Assembly: GCA_029007725.1 (NCBI GenBank)
Contig: JAQXIJ010000059.1
Location: 1 to 64,000 of the forward strand
Source: Bacillota bacterium
Lineage (GTDB): Bacteria; Bacillota; Clostridia; UBA1381
Direction: 5' to 3'
DNA length: 64,000 bases
How positions within the stretch are numbered: the first letter of the stretch is position 1; every line of letters starts with the position of its first letter. The notes under the pieces are model-generated. The model did not search any database and had not been told where the DNA came from. It was given only the letters and a program-made list of their open reading frames with translations. This document shows positions 6,993 through 17,935 of this stretch, one piece after another. The position numbers and the translations under genes are program-made.

Positions 6993-6999
6993 GCAGTTA

Positions 7000-7031
7000 G
7001 GCAGGAAAGCCTAAATATGGCTATTCCTGCC
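7000..7031 (+). repeat. Strong hairpin downstream of IS256 outward promoter
   Basis: GGCAGGAA plus AGCC (7000-7011) pairs with GGCT (7019-7022) and TTCCTGCC (7024-7031) with one bulged A. It would be the first structure in a transcript from the promoter at 6964-6992. No T-run follows. Confidence 0.55.
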
Positions 7032-7068
7032 CATAAAATTTGAATATTTTATCATAGAAAAATTGAAT

Positions 7069-7554
7069 TTACAGAAAATTTCTCACACTGCCGCTGTTGT
7101 GCTCCTTGAATGCTCGGTCCAAGTTTCGTTTTAAATCACGCTTCTGCAAATCGGCGCGCTTATCATAGAGTTTTTTGCCTTTGCACACGCCCAGCAAAAG
7201 CTTAACCTTTGATCCCTTTAGATAGACCGAGAGCGGTATCAAGGCATATCCTTCTTGCTGAACCTGACCTATGAGCTTTCTAATTTGGCTTTTGTGCAAC
7301 AGTAGCTTTTTGTATCGCAGCGGATCGCGGTTAAAAATGTTACCCTGCTCATAAGGGCTGATATTCATGCCCTTTACATAAACCTCGCTATTGTCAAGCG
7401 AAGCGTATGCGTCTGCGATGTTTACCTTTCCAAGACGTATGGACTTGACTTCCGTTCCGAAAAGCTCGATTCCACATTCTATAGTTTCAGTGACAAAATA
7501 GTCGTGCCTCGCTTTTTTGTTTTGTGCAAGTGTTTTTGTATTTTCCGAGGTCAA
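7069..7554 (-). CDS. smpB: SsrA-binding protein SmpB with IS-derived C-terminus
   Basis: SmpB binds tmRNA and brings it to stalled ribosomes for trans-translation. The 161-residue protein has the beta-barrel core with [28 protein letters not shown], then [12 protein letters not shown] and [24 protein letters not shown]. Start is TTG 7554, eight bases after GGAGG. The last seven codons (GSVRNFL) and the stop are supplied by the right terminal repeat of the IS256 element. Removing the element restores an ending of R-H-stop after ...EHNS (156 residues). The final residues are poorly conserved in the family, so activity may survive. No ssrA gene is adjacent. Confidence 0.95.
7093..7101. repeat. 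Right target-site duplication of IS256-family element
   Basis: GCTGTTGTG, an exact copy of 5599-5607; on the minus strand it encodes the H-N-S of SmpB. Confidence 0.9.
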
Positions 7555-7764
7555 AAAAATCGCCTCCTTAATATCTTATATAATTTGTAAAATGCCAAAT
7601 TGCATTAAAAATTCTTTTAAATCTCGAAGAGCCACTGCATATATTATAACATATATTTTGAACATTGCAAATGTTTTTAAAAATAAAAAAACGCAATAGT
7701 ATACATTATATTTTCTGAGAATACATAAAATATACAGCCATATTAATAAAAATATAAAAAAAAC

Positions 7765-7793
7765 TTGATTTATGGCACATTTTGTATTAAAAT
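7765..7793 (+). promoter_or_regulatory. Sigma-A promoter of pgi
   Basis: TTGATT (7765-7770) and TAAAAT (7788-7793) with a 17-bp spacer lie about 40 bp upstream of the pgi start. The rest of the gap 7555-7764 is very AT-rich with nothing recognisable. Confidence 0.7.
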
Positions 7794-7832
7794 ATGCTTA
7801 ATAAACTGTTTTTATAGTATCAGGAGGTTTTC

Positions 7833-9185
7833 ATGATGGAAAAATTAAAATTTGATTATAAAAAAGCAGCTCCATTTGTTTCAGAACATGAAATTGAGGG
7901 TATGAAAGAATATGTAAAAGCTGCACACGATATGATTCATAACAAGACCGGCGCCGGCAATGATTTTCTGGGATGGGTAAATCTTCCAACAGACTATGAC
8001 AAGGAAGAGTTTGCAAGAATTAAAAAGGCTGCCGAAAAAATCAGAAACGACTCCGACATTCTTATCGTAATAGGAATAGGCGGCTCATATCTTGGTGCAA
8101 GAGCGGCAATTGAAATGCTCAGCCATACATTCTATAATGTTCTTGATAAGGACAAGAGGAAAGGCCCTGCAATTTTATTTGCCGGAAACAGCATCAGTTC
8201 AACGTACCTTGCAGACCTTATCGAAGTTGTCGGGGACAAAGATTTTTCGGTAAATGTAATTTCAAAATCCGGAACGACAACTGAACCTGCAATAGCATTC
8301 AGAGTTTTTAGAGAAATGCTTGAGAAAAAATATGGAAGGGAAGAAGCAAGAAAAAGAATTTATGCAACAACCGACAAGTCGCGCGGTGTACTTAAAAATC
8401 TAGCGGACAAAGAAGGCTACGAAAGCTTCGTAATCAGTGATGATGTTGGCGGAAGATACTCCGTTTTAACAGCTGTCGGACTTCTGCCGATTGCGGTTGC
8501 CGGAATTGATATCGACGCAATCATGAAGGGTGCAAAAGATGCTCAGGAGCTTTATTCAAATCCCGATGTCATGTCAAACGAGTGCTATCAGTACGCAGTT
8601 GTAAGAAACGCTCTTTTGAGAAAGGGCAAAAACATCGAAATGATGGTTAATTTTGAGCCGGCGCTGCATTACTTTGGTGAATGGTGGAAGCAACTCTTCG
8701 GTGAGTCTGAGGGCAAGGACAACAAGGGCATTTTCCCGGCTGCGGCAGATTTTTCTACAGACCTTCACTCCATGGGACAGTATATTCAGGAAGGTCAGAG
8801 ACTTTTGTTTGAAACAGCGATTTTGGTTGACGAACCTACAAAGGATATAACCATAGAGGAAGATGCGGAAAATATAGATGGATTAAACTTTCTTGCAGGC
8901 AAAAAAATGAGCTTTGTAAACAAAAAGGCTTCAGATGGCGTTTGCCTTGCACATACCGATGGCGGAGTGCCTAATCTTGTTGTAACCGTGCCAAAACTTG
9001 ACGCATATAACTTCGGAATGATGGTTTACTTCTTTGAAAAGGCCTGCGGAATTTCAGGATACCTGCTTGGCGTAAATCCGTTTAATCAGCCGGGCGTTGA
9101 GGCATACAAAAAGAATATGTTTGCGCTTTTGGGCAAGCCAGGGTATGAATCGGAAAAGGCAGAGCTTGAAAAAAGACTTGGTTAA
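7833..9185 (+). CDS. pgi: Glucose-6-phosphate isomerase
   Basis: Pgi interconverts glucose-6-phosphate and fructose-6-phosphate in glycolysis. The 450-residue protein is the shorter Bacillota form. Visible are [17 protein letters not shown] (sugar-phosphate binding), [16 protein letters not shown], the [14 protein letters not shown] block and the C-terminal [16 protein letters not shown] signature. Two adjacent ATG codons (7833, 7836) follow AGGAGG (7822-7827); the second has the better spacing. Fructose-6-phosphate is also the product of the NagB pathway encoded nearby. Confidence 0.97.
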
Positions 9186-12990: not shown

Positions 12991-13941
12991 TCAGGTTTGT
13001 GGCTGTTCATGCTGCAAGCCTGATTTTTTCTTCTCATTGTCTGAAAACAGACCGGCGGCTTCATCGGTGAGAGCGCGAATTGAGTTGGCATATTCGGTCG
13101 GCGACATATTGACATACTGCTTGAACTGACGCGAAAAATAGTGTATGCTGTCGTATCCCAAAAGCTCTGCAATCTGGGTAAAGTTGTAGCTGTTTTCACG
13201 TATATATGTTTTTGCGCGGTCAATTTTCATTCTGATAAAATATTCGCACGCGCCGCAGCCGGCTTGTTCCTTAAAAAGCTGCTTTACGGCTGTTTTGCTG
13301 ATTCCCGAATGTCTTGCTATTTCAGAAAGTGTAAGGGATCTGCCGAGATGTGACGACATGAATTCTACAATTTCACCGAAAAGTCCGCTGTCGAGATTGC
13401 GTTTTAATGAAGTAACAGCAGGAGAAGCCTCGTTTCGCAGAAATATTATCAAAAGCTCACATAGACATAGTTTTACCATTTGCTCCGATCCGAAGAGCGC
13501 ATTTTTTCTGCGGTGAAGTTTTGGCGTTACAAGTCCCGAAAGCGGAGTGTCAAATGCCGCAGATGCTTCACTGATTATTTTTGAAATCAGTGCGCGCTGA
13601 ACACTGCCGGTTTTTAATACTTTTCCGTAAAAGCCGCTCATGACCTCGGAGTGTGACTTAAAGCTTATCACCGCGACTGAGGAAGCGGCTATACCGTTTC
13701 CTATCAGAGTATGCCATTCGTCAGGTTTGTGAAAAATTATATCACCGCTTTTCAGTGTACGAGCACAGTTTCCCGAATATGCAGTGATTTCGCCTTTGTC
13801 GACATAGACAAATTCCCAAAAATCATGCTGTTCTCCTGGAAATTTATAGTCCTTTGCAAGCTCAAAGTAATGTACAGAAACAAGCTCGGTTATGTTGATG
13901 ACTTCCTTTAGTCTTGTTCCAGAGTATATTTTTGTATCCAT
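12991..13941 (-). CDS. AraC-family transcriptional regulator (N-acetylhexosamine operon)
   Basis: This 316-residue regulator has an N-terminal cupin-like sensor region (about 20-100, with HDFWEFVYVDKGEITAYSG and FHKPDEWHTL). The C-terminal double helix-turn-helix (about 205-295) includes LSEIARHSGISKTAVKQLFKEQ and the ARAC signature around FTQIAELLGYDSIHYFSRQFKQYVNMSP. GGAG precedes its ATG. It is divergent from the kinase/NagB-ROK/NagA operon with overlapping promoters between them. A role as its sugar-responsive activator is inferred from position. Confidence 0.9.
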   Translation of the reverse strand: MDTKIYSGTRLKEVINITELVSVHYFELAKDYKFPGEQHDFWEFVYVDKGEITAYSGNCARTLKSGDIIFHKPDEWHTLIGNGIAASSVAVISFKSHSEVMSGFYGKVLKTGSVQRALISKIISEASAAFDTPLSGLVTPKLHRRKNALFGSEQMVKLCLCELLIIFLRNEASPAVTSLKRNLDSGLFGEIVEFMSSHLGRSLTLSEIARHSGISKTAVKQLFKEQAGCGACEYFIRMKIDRAKTYIRENSYNFTQIAELLGYDSIHYFSRQFKQYVNMSPTEYANSIRALTDEAAGLFSDNEKKKSGLQHEQPQT

Positions 13942-14020: not shown

Positions 14021-14089
14021 GCAAATAAAAAAAATAATTATATATTATAATAAGGCATGAAGAAAAAACAAGGAAAGGATAAGGCGGAA

Positions 14090-15163
14090 ATGAATTATAA
14101 TTTATCAGATATTATACGCAATTTTGAAATTAACGTGGAAATCGAACCTTACGGAAACGGACATATAAACGATACATATATCGCCCAAAGCGACCCCAAG
14201 TACATATTGCAAAGGATAAACAGTGCAGTGTTTAAAAATCCAGAGCAGGTAATGAGCAATATTATGGGTGTTACGGAGCACCTGCGCAGAAAAATTATTG
14301 AAAACGGCGGAAATCCAGAGCGTGAAACACTTAATCTGGTAAAAACCAGAGATGGAAAAAGCTACTATAAAGCTGACAGTGACAATTATTTCAGAATGTA
14401 TAAGTTTATTGAGGATGCAGTAAGCTATGATAAGGCAGAAAATCTGCGGCAGTTTTGCGAAGCAGCGAAGGCATTCGGACGTTTTCAGAATATGCTTTCT
14501 GATTATCCAGTAGAAAAGCTGTATGAAACAATTCCGGATTTTCATGATACGCGCAAGCGCTTTGAGAATTTTGAAACCGCGGTTACGGAGGATAGGATGC
14601 ACAGACTTGCAGGAGTAAAAAAAGAGGTTGATTTTGCATTTGCACGAAAGGAAGATACCGGGATTATTGTAGACGCTATTGCAGACGGACGTGTGCCGAT
14701 ACGTGTGACGCACAACGACACAAAGCTGAACAACGTTATGCTCGATAAACAAACCGGTGAGGGTGTTTGTGTGATTGACCTCGATACCGTAATGCCCGGA
14801 TCACTTTTATATGATTACGGTGATGCACTGCGTTTCGGTGCTTCAAGCGGAGCCGAGGATGAGCGTGATCTTAATAAAATTTGGTTTGACCTTGACCTTT
14901 TTGAAGTATTTACACAAGGTTTTTTATCGGAGGTCGGTGGCGCGCTTAACGAAGAGGAAGTACGTCTTCTGCCTTTTTCGGCAAAGATTATGACATATGA
15001 ATGCGGAATACGATTTCTTGGTGACTATTTAAACGGAGACACATATTTTAAAATTCACCGCCATGGACAAAACCTCGACCGCGCAAGAACGCAGTTCAAA
15101 TTGGTTGCCGATATAGAAACAAAACTAGGCATTATGGCAGATATAGTGAACAAATATCTTTAA
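14090..15163 (+). CDS. nahK: N-acetylhexosamine 1-kinase-like phosphotransferase
   Basis: This 357-residue APH-fold kinase resembles NahK, which phosphorylates GlcNAc/GalNAc at C1 after phosphorolytic or hydrolytic breakdown of host glycans. The glycine-rich N-terminus EPYGNGHINDTY is followed by the catalytic loop THNDTKLNNVMLD and the metal-binding VIDLDTVMPGSLLYDYGD. Length matches the roughly 360 residues of NahK. An in-frame ATG at 14057 would add 11 residues. I prefer 14090 because AAAGGATAAGGCGG lies before it and the protein then begins where NahK does. The exact sugar specificity cannot be told. Confidence 0.82.
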   Translation: MNYNLSDIIRNFEINVEIEPYGNGHINDTYIAQSDPKYILQRINSAVFKNPEQVMSNIMGVTEHLRRKIIENGGNPERETLNLVKTRDGKSYYKADSDNYFRMYKFIEDAVSYDKAENLRQFCEAAKAFGRFQNMLSDYPVEKLYETIPDFHDTRKRFENFETAVTEDRMHRLAGVKKEVDFAFARKEDTGIIVDAIADGRVPIRVTHNDTKLNNVMLDKQTGEGVCVIDLDTVMPGSLLYDYGDALRFGASSGAEDERDLNKIWFDLDLFEVFTQGFLSEVGGALNEEEVRLLPFSAKIMTYECGIRFLGDYLNGDTYFKIHRHGQNLDRARTQFKLVADIETKLGIMADIVNKYL

Positions 15164-15176
15164 TCGCAAAAGAGGT

Positions 15177-16808
15177 ATGAACATGAGAGTAATAGTATGC
15201 AATGATTACGATGAAATGTCAAAGCGTGCGGCAAAAATTGTGGCAAGTCAGATTACATTGAAGCCAAATTGTGTTCTGGGCCTTGCAACAGGCTCTACGC
15301 CTATAGGGCTTTATGACAATCTTGCTGAAATGAACAAACTCGGTGAAATAGATTTTTCGGATGTCACTACATTTAATTTGGACGAATACTATCCTATAAA
15401 CCTGGATAATGACCAAAGCTACCACTATTTTATGAATGAGCATCTGTTCACTAGGGTGAACATAGACATAAATAGTACTCATCTGCCAAATGGTCAGACA
15501 GATGATCCTGAAACAGAGTGCGAGAACTATGAAAAGATGATAAATGATGCCGGCGGAATAGATTTGCAAATACTCGGCATAGGTCAGAACGGACATATAG
15601 GTTTCAATGAGCCGGATAACAATTTGAATACGGTAACGCATCTTACGGGACTTACGCAAAGCACAATTGAAGCAAACTCCCGATTTTTTGAAAAAAAAGA
15701 GGATGTTCCGACTCGGGCACTTACAATGGGAATTGCAAGTATTCTCAAATCACGCAAAATTGTTCTGCTTGCCAGCGGAAGGACGAAGTATAAGGTTGTC
15801 AGCGAGCTTTTGAACGAGGGAATAAATACGTCTGTTCCGGCAACCATGCTTAAGGTTCATCCTGACGTGGTTCTGATCTGTGATAAGGAAGCTTATGCAA
15901 GCATGTATCTCGGCGTTGACATTGGCGGAACAAGCATAAAGTTCGGTGTTGTTGATGGATTTAATAATATTGTTTATAAGGACAGTCTGCCAACGCAAAA
16001 GGATAAGCCGGCACGTGCAATTATCGATAATATAGCAAAGGCGTGCAAAGATATAACTTCGCGTTTCCCGGTTACGGCGGTTGGAGTCGGCACACCCGGA
16101 ATAATCGATTTTGCTAAAAAGACAGTAACTGCTGCAAACCTGCCGTTTGACAATACCCCTATATTCGATTGGCTGAAGGAAAGCATAAATCTACCGGTAT
16201 ATATCAATAATGACGCGAACTGCGCGGCTTTAGGCGAAGCAGTTGCGGGAGAGGGGGCCGGCGAAAAGGATATGCTTATGATTACGCTTGGCACAGGAAT
16301 CGGCGGTGGAATTATAATCGATAAAAAGATTTATATGGGCGCAAAGGGAGATGCCGGTGAAATAGGACATATGTGTATTGAAACGAACGGAAAGCCATGC
16401 TCTTGTGGGAACCGTGGCTGCTGGGAAAAATATGCTTCAGTATCGGCACTTATAGAGCAGACGGAGGAAGCAGTATTGAAAAACCCCAACAGCATTCTTG
16501 CAAATGTGATTGCAAAAAACCACGTCGTTGACGGAAAAACCGTTTTTGAAGCAAAGCAGAAGGGATGTACGGTTGCTGATGCGGTATTTGAACAATACAT
16601 TGAATATCTTGCGGTTGGAATACGCAATATAATTAACATTTTTAGACCGGGAGCGGTGGTTATAGCAGGAGGGATTTCAGAAGCAGGACAAGCTCTGTTG
16701 GATCCATTGGTTAAAAAGGTTGATTCAAGCGTGCCAATAAAGATTTCACGTTTGCAAAATGATGCCGGAATTATAGGTGCAGCACTTCTGGGTGAAAAGA
16801 ACAGGTGA
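15177..16808 (+). CDS. nagB: Fused glucosamine-6-phosphate deaminase (NagB) and ROK-family sugar kinase
   Basis: One 543-residue frame joins two enzymes. Residues 1-240 are NagB (GlcN6P to Fru6P plus ammonia), with LATGSTPIGLYDNL, NLDEYYPI and ILGIGQNGHIGFNEP. Residues 243-543 are a ROK kinase: LGVDIGGTSIKFGVV, NNDANCAALGEA, TLGTGIGGGIII and the zinc motif CSCGNRGCWEKYAS. A GlcNAc or related amino-sugar kinase is likely. The junction has almost no linker; an internal ATG (15903) sits exactly where a free ROK protein would begin. AAGGA lies 13 bases upstream of that ATG, so internal initiation is possible but weak. It is 13 bp after nahK and overlaps nagA. Confidence 0.93.
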   Translation: MNMRVIVCNDYDEMSKRAAKIVASQITLKPNCVLGLATGSTPIGLYDNLAEMNKLGEIDFSDVTTFNLDEYYPINLDNDQSYHYFMNEHLFTRVNIDINSTHLPNGQTDDPETECENYEKMINDAGGIDLQILGIGQNGHIGFNEPDNNLNTVTHLTGLTQSTIEANSRFFEKKEDVPTRALTMGIASILKSRKIVLLASGRTKYKVVSELLNEGINTSVPATMLKVHPDVVLICDKEAYASMYLGVDIGGTSIKFGVVDGFNNIVYKDSLPTQKDKPARAIIDNIAKACKDITSRFPVTAVGVGTPGIIDFAKKTVTAANLPFDNTPIFDWLKESINLPVYINNDANCAALGEAVAGEGAGEKDMLMITLGTGIGGGIIIDKKIYMGAKGDAGEIGHMCIETNGKPCSCGNRGCWEKYASVSALIEQTEEAVLKNPNSILANVIAKNHVVDGKTVFEAKQKGCTVADAVFEQYIEYLAVGIRNIINIFRPGAVVIAGGISEAGQALLDPLVKKVDSSVPIKISRLQNDAGIIGAALLGEKNR

Positions 16809-16813
16809 TTGAT

Positions 16814-17935
16814 ATGCTGTTTAAAAATGTAACGGTTTTGGGAGAGGATTTCAAGTTTCGCAAAGACAATGTTGCGGTTGAAAACGGATGTTTTTGCAAA
16901 ATTTCTCAAAGTGGTGTTGAAATGGATTGCAGCGGAATGCTTATGTTGCCCGGATTGGTTGATATTCATACTCACGGTGCTGCAGGCTACGATAATATGG
17001 ATTTTGGGTTTGAGGCTATAGATATGATTTCGCGCTTTATAGGCGAAAACGGAGTTACGACATATTTGCCGACACTAATAACACAAAGCCACGAAAATAT
17101 GCGTGCTGCGGCAGAAAATATAGCAAACGCCCAAAAACGCGGTGTGAGAGGCGCAAAAATTGGCGGAATCTACATGGAGGGACCGTATTTTTCGGTTAAA
17201 TATAAAGGCGCGCAGAATGAGGAATATATACGCGACCCCGACGCCGAAGAATTTTTTGATATTGATGCGGCTTGCGGAAATATTATCAGGATAATAAGCA
17301 TTGCACCGGAAAGAAACGGCGCGCCTGAATTTTTACAGACGGTTTCGGGAAAGGTTAAGGTTGCAATCGGACATACCGACTCGGACTATGATACAGCCGT
17401 AAACGCAATACGGCTCGGAGCATCGCATATGACGCATACATACAACGCAATGCGTGGACTGCATCACCGTAGTCCTAACGCAATCTGCGCAGCTATTGAC
17501 AGCAATGTAACCTGTGAATGCATTTGTGACGGAATACATATTCATCCTGCTATGATAAGGCTGTTATATAAGGCGGTAGGACGTGAGAGGCTGGTATTAA
17601 TATCCGATTCGCTGCGTGCGACCGGTATGCCGGACGGCGAGTATGACCTAGGCGGTCAGCGCACTATTCTCAAAAATGGGCGAGCAACACTGCCTGACGG
17701 AACTATTGCCGGAAGTACGGCGACACTGTTATACTGTGTAAAAAAGGCCGTTGAAATCGGACTTCCGATAGAAGATGCAGTTCGCGCGGCAAGCTATAAT
17801 CCGTCAAAAGCCGCAGGAATTGCGGATGTTGCCGGCGTTATTGCAGAAGGAAGAGATGCAGATTTTATACTTACAGACAGTGAACTTAATCTAAAATACG
17901 TTTATATAAACGGAAACCAATATAAGAGGAAATGA
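16814..17935 (+). CDS. nagA: N-acetylglucosamine-6-phosphate deacetylase
   Basis: NagA removes the acetyl group from GlcNAc-6-phosphate, giving the substrate of NagB. The 373-residue amidohydrolase shows the metal site DIHTHG, MEGPYFS, AIGHTDSDYDTA, HTYNAMRGLHHRSPN, CDGIHIHP and LISDSLRATGMPDG. I prefer ATG 16814, six bases after AGGTG; a GTG at 16805 overlapping the previous stop codon is possible. It is the last gene of the operon, so the order kinase, deaminase-kinase, deacetylase gives a complete route to fructose-6-phosphate. Confidence 0.94.
   Translation: MLFKNVTVLGEDFKFRKDNVAVENGCFCKISQSGVEMDCSGMLMLPGLVDIHTHGAAGYDNMDFGFEAIDMISRFIGENGVTTYLPTLITQSHENMRAAAENIANAQKRGVRGAKIGGIYMEGPYFSVKYKGAQNEEYIRDPDAEEFFDIDAACGNIIRIISIAPERNGAPEFLQTVSGKVKVAIGHTDSDYDTAVNAIRLGASHMTHTYNAMRGLHHRSPNAICAAIDSNVTCECICDGIHIHPAMIRLLYKAVGRERLVLISDSLRATGMPDGEYDLGGQRTILKNGRATLPDGTIAGSTATLLYCVKKAVEIGLPIEDAVRAASYNPSKAAGIADVAGVIAEGRDADFILTDSELNLKYVYINGNQYKRK

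Follow-up and report, generated by a model that had tools for sequence, protein, structure and literature searches.

A single open reading frame joining a glucosamine-6-phosphate deaminase (NagB) to a ROK sugar kinase was found at positions 15177-16808 (+ strand) of the window, the whole 64,000-nucleotide stretch of DNA analysed here. The frame runs for 543 aa without interruption, with NagB at the N-terminus, the ROK kinase at the C-terminus and zero added linker. Judged from sequence and gene context, the product is rather likely to be a bifunctional N-acetylglucosamine (GlcNAc) 6-kinase/glucosamine-6-phosphate (GlcN-6-P) deaminase, both activities and the substrate being predicted, while NagA performs the intervening step. 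The original prediction of one protein carrying both domains at full length and nearly without linker agrees well with our results: the two-domain frame is open from end to end, the NagB match ends at residue 241 and the ROK match begins at residue 244. When the architecture was sought elsewhere, as had been proposed, 28 further loci with the same fusion and identical junction spacing were obtained. Translation probably starts at 15183 (Met3), giving 541 aa, rather than at 15177, because Met3 is kept in 28/28 orthologues and the sequence AAGAGG at 15170-15175 lies 7 bases ahead of the ATG at 15183, compared with 1 base ahead of 15177.

The NagB domain occupies 15183-15899 (+). Residues 3-241 score 281.7 bits against TIGR00502 (nagB), above the cutoff of 236.9 and covering profile positions 1-245 of 259, and the match to the monomeric NagB of B. 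subtilis (PDB 2bkv) has E=1e-66. Asp69 and His140 are invariant and Glu145 is present in nearly all members, the window's protein included; these correspond to Asp72, His143 and Glu148 of E. coli NagB. Such conservation is consistent with a predicted GlcN-6-P deaminase activity. A family search showed that the fusion is the only PF01182 protein in the window's genome. In two fused loci (L121 and L122, genomes G358 and G440, fused frame 6995-8602), FNNP stands in place of FNEP at the position of E. coli Glu148; in the tree of NagB domains these proteins sit on a long branch, both genomes hold additional PF01182 genes, and the deaminase half there may be altered or inactive.

The ROK domain, a putative GlcNAc 6-kinase, extends over 15903-16805 (+). 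Residues 244-539 match PF00480 with 240.9 bits over profile positions 1-291 of 294, and an ATP-binding motif, the catalytic Asp, ExGH and the zinc motif CxCGxxGC can all be observed. Asp248, Asn345, Asp346, Thr373, Glu395 and His398, together with the zinc ligands Cys408, Cys410 and Cys415, are invariant among the fused proteins. A role as a NagC/Mlc-type repressor was considered and rejected, the N-terminal domain being NagB rather than a DNA-binding domain. None of the curated NagK models reached its cutoff for the fusion (PRK13310, 130.1 bits, cutoff 380), and the best ROK model, TIGR00744 (ROK_glcA, a broad glucokinase family), gave 231.9 bits, also under its cutoff of 260.35. The catalytic residues identified by mutation in P. 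shigelloides NagK, namely D6, N104, D105, T132, E154 and H157 (PMC10031466), align with residues that are invariant across all fused proteins, and the pocket segment AAN-L-P of the window's protein is closer to AAN-V-P of E. coli NagK than to that of most glucokinases. These features point only weakly to GlcNAc, because most such catalytic residues are common to ROK kinases, while residue 320, at the position of Ser78 in the P. shigelloides enzyme, varies among the fused proteins and Ser78 itself is not essential (PMC10031466). AlphaFold2 applied to 28 fused orthologues gave a mean pLDDT of 88.4, and the model has structural matches in 3vgk, a ROK glucokinase, and in 2bkv, the NagB of B. subtilis; the pTM of 0.66 makes the relative placing of the NagB and ROK halves unreliable. 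A sequence search of the PDB returned no chain spanning both.

The fusion lies within an operon of the order nahK–[nagB::rok]–nagA. Upstream, nahK (14057-15163, +) encodes an N-acetylhexosamine 1-kinase matching PDB 4ocj (E=3.4e-98 over residues 11-359 of 368) and 4wh1 (E=6e-98). Downstream, nagA (16805-17935, +) encodes an N-acetylglucosamine-6-phosphate deacetylase with 308.3 bits against TIGR00221 (cutoff 225.65); its GTG at 16805 overlaps the stop of the fusion by 4 bases, and ATG 16814 is an alternative start. A divergent AraC-family regulator (12991-13941, - strand; PF00165/PF12833/PF02311) probably controls the operon, and several orthologous operons are likewise adjoined by AraC-type genes. 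With some loci cut by contig ends, nagA is present at 21/29 fused loci (the window and 20 of the other 28), at 18 of them directly adjacent on the same strand, and nahK at 17/29, the window counted. The examined stretch holds no nagA at the remaining 8, of which 4 are on contigs ending within about 1.3 kb downstream.

Further genes were observed around related operons. A nucleotidyltransferase of about 280 aa, located ahead of nahK, occurs in or beside several of them (L107:5080-5919, L111:4544-5386, L124:2258-3100; PF00483 shown for L107), which suggests a salvage branch from HexNAc-1-P to UDP-HexNAc. In family f47 a 443-aa protein precedes nagB, located between nahK and nagB (L125:3775-5106, L131:3059-4390, L132:4657-5988); the L125 copy has no Pfam or NCBIfam match, displays by eye a kinase-like GFDAGGSDMK segment, and is possibly an undescribed amino-sugar kinase. 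In G269 (L123, 4706-9688) the order is nahK-nagB-rok-nagA-AraC with a ROK of the glucokinase clade; here a kinase was apparently recruited independently to the equivalent operon position. On the Parabacteroides distasonis plasmid NZ_OY725758.1 (L175:8001-9665), a SusC/SusD locus contains an AgaI-like isomerase and a ROK as adjacent but separate genes, their order matching that of the fused domains.

Analysis of the operons and of the ROK tree indicates GlcNAc as the likeliest substrate of the kinase half. In the tree, the fused ROK clade is separated from the glucokinases, and ROKs of this clade are also found in operons that lack nagB and are ordered nahK-rok-nagA or nahK-nagA-rok (L146, L147), in genomes whose NagB-type genes are at other sites. 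A kinase accompanied by nagA and nahK in this way should act on an N-acetylated sugar, and it is this context, together with the frequency of nagA at the fused loci, that favors GlcNAc. Furthermore, family searches of the window's genome gave a single PF01182 protein, one other full ROK, grouped with the glucokinases in the tree, and one PTS IIBC, whose score is nearer to the model for glucose than to that for GlcNAc, with both under cutoff; on this gene set a kinase for GlcNAc would be required. A ROK annotated as glucokinase can act on GlcNAc and ManNAc, as was shown for TTE2418 of Thermoanaerobacter tengcongensis (PMC3766608). The operon context does not support the earlier suggestion that the ROK part may phosphorylate another amino sugar.

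It is quite unlikely that the ROK half is a broad HexNAc/hexose kinase that takes GlcNAc, ManNAc, GalNAc or glucose and has its main substrate in a sugar other than GlcNAc, although ROK_glcA is the top family model, a GH109-type gene lies upstream in L103 and L105, and TTE2418 accepts, besides GlcNAc and ManNAc, also glucose, less well (PMC3766608). A separate glucokinase-clade ROK is already available in the genome, and an unsystematic look beside the operon revealed neither sialic-acid nor GalNAc-6-P genes. A glucosamine 6-kinase, by which the adjacent steps GlcN -> GlcN-6-P -> Fru-6-P would be joined and NagA bypassed, would account for the pairing of kinase with deaminase, and the stretch seen of the Bacteroidota plasmid described above has no annotated deacetylase; this reading is nevertheless improbable, since nagA adjoins the fusion at most loci and ROKs of the same clade accompany nagA and nahK where nagB is missing.

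The junction comprises codons 242-245 (S-M-Y-L, 15900-15911, +), and the distance from the NagB tail (CDxxAY) to the ROK core (LGVDIGG) is identical in 29/29 fused proteins. Codon 243 is the ATG at 15903 that had been pointed out at the junction; in the alignment it coincides with the start Met of free-standing ROK genes in two related genomes, G036 and G034 (MRFGVDIGG). Two proteins might accordingly be supposed to arise from the frame, through processing of NagB or through an internal start at 15903 that also gives a free ROK, and AAGGA is present 13 bases upstream. A ribosome site would normally lie closer, the junction Met is found in 8/29 fused proteins, chiefly those closely related to the window's, and 18/29 have no ATG, GTG or TTG within the 12 codons ahead of the ROK core, so that a separate ROK protein cannot begin there in these. 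Production of two proteins is thus regarded as very improbable.

The fusion is distributed well beyond a single assembly. Within the window's own family, a near-whole-protein match was obtained in 26/70 genomes and 10/17 genera, full-length, in frame and with 50-85% identity, while in a 27th genome (G051) the match is truncated where contigs stop. Sampling across the class added five genomes from three other families (G205, G290; G103; G358, G440), G103 holding two copies, while among 398 genomes across the phylum no fusion beyond the window's own genome was found at E<=1e-105; the whole-genome searches were confined to Bacillota. Apparent split copies in G047 (L129, L140) were set aside, both halves stopping at contig ends. 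The window's genome is fragmented (89 contigs), yet the same in-frame junction at 28 other loci in other assemblies in practice rules out an assembly artefact, and the chance that a sequencing or assembly error merged two genes is negligible. No description of a NagB-ROK or NagB-NagK fusion was found in the open-access literature, subscription papers and domain-architecture databases being outside the scope of the search, and the text of the bifidobacterial study PMC5583593 contains neither "fusion" nor "fused". Both halves are known enzyme types; their combination is a new domain architecture with respect to the open-access literature, with prior listing in a database possible.

The origin of the fusion can be considered through G036 and G034, the sole clean split pair nested among fused forms. 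In these genomes nagB ends ...AYGI or ...AYAL and overlaps rok as ATGA, the two genes being in different frames. Between AY and the ROK core there are 11 bases before TTC in G036 and 12 before CTT in the fused sister L107, implying that a one-base net indel separates the split and fused states. Derivation from two adjacent genes, as the original prediction supposed, is plausible because the junction ATG aligns with the separate ROK starts, but loss of a stop alone does not describe the difference, as a change of frame also lies between the two states. In both the ROK and NagB trees, G036 and G034 are placed beside L107 with 100% bootstrap, within larger fused groups, and their split therefore looks derived from a fused ancestor; fusion and fission appear to be interconvertible. 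A single clade of all fused forms was rejected by the AU test (p 0.001 for ROK, 1.4e-6 for NagB), because split or nagB-less relatives nest within them. Several rows of the NagB tree have long branches, so the trees do not fix how often the fusion was gained or lost.

As to the process in which the protein would take part, the C-terminal ROK half would phosphorylate GlcNAc at O6 with ATP, NagA from the next gene would deacetylate GlcNAc-6-P, and the N-terminal NagB half would convert GlcN-6-P to fructose-6-phosphate and ammonia, while NahK from the upstream gene would direct part of the HexNAc to HexNAc-1-phosphate. Many metabolic fusions pair consecutive steps. If GlcNAc is the substrate, steps one and three of the textbook pathway are joined here, as first proposed, and the middle enzyme stays apart as a separate neighbour. 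The first and last enzymes would then be supplied at 1:1 and co-located, NagA is probably translated from the transcript that encodes them, and a benefit may lie in this co-location. A scaffold on which NagA docks, so that GlcNAc passes to Fru-6-P in a three-step assembly leak-proof for GlcNAc-6-P and GlcN-6-P, is a speculative and fairly unlikely extension. The occurrence of a conserved family in one Clostridia group together with a natural split pair allows co-location and fixed stoichiometry to be compared cleanly as drivers of enzyme fusion. Annotation is affected as well: NagB or glucokinase models give the top scores for genes of this kind, so that the GlcNAc kinase can be overlooked.

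Comparison with known systems places each half close to familiar enzymes. The NagB of B. subtilis (PDB 2bkv/2bkx, monomeric) shares 44% identity with the NagB half over the structural alignment, with a TM-score of 0.94 by target and a similarly short C-terminus, but it is a stand-alone protein of 242 aa without a kinase domain. In the long protein described by PRK02122/NF002557, NagB is likewise one part of a larger whole; the NagB half matches only profile positions 30-273 of 653 (233/384 bits), the remainder of the profile is unmatched in the fusion, and the second domain there is presumably not a ROK kinase. NagK (E. coli b1119; P. shigelloides 7p7i) resembles the ROK half in fold, catalytic and zinc residues and AAN-[VL]-P, whereas it is stand-alone, about 29% identical, and its proteobacterial model is not reached. 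The ROK glucokinases of S. griseus (3vgk) and E. faecalis (2qm1) give the top sequence and structure scores; these too are stand-alone, and in the tree the glucokinase-like ROK encoded elsewhere in the window's genome branches apart from the fused ROKs. In animals, consecutive steps of sialic acid synthesis are joined in one protein, with a partner different from NagB. That protein, too, is a ROK kinase in fusion with another amino-sugar enzyme (PMC2742894). In bifidobacteria, a ROK nagK, nagB, nagA and an N-acetylhexosamine 1-kinase serve one sugar (PMC9599254, PMC5583593). The bifidobacterial nahK and nagK/nagB/nagA loci thus resemble the window's operon in enzyme set, but there the genes are separate and accompanied by the ROK-type regulator NagR, whereas here nagB and rok are fused and an AraC-family gene stands beside them.
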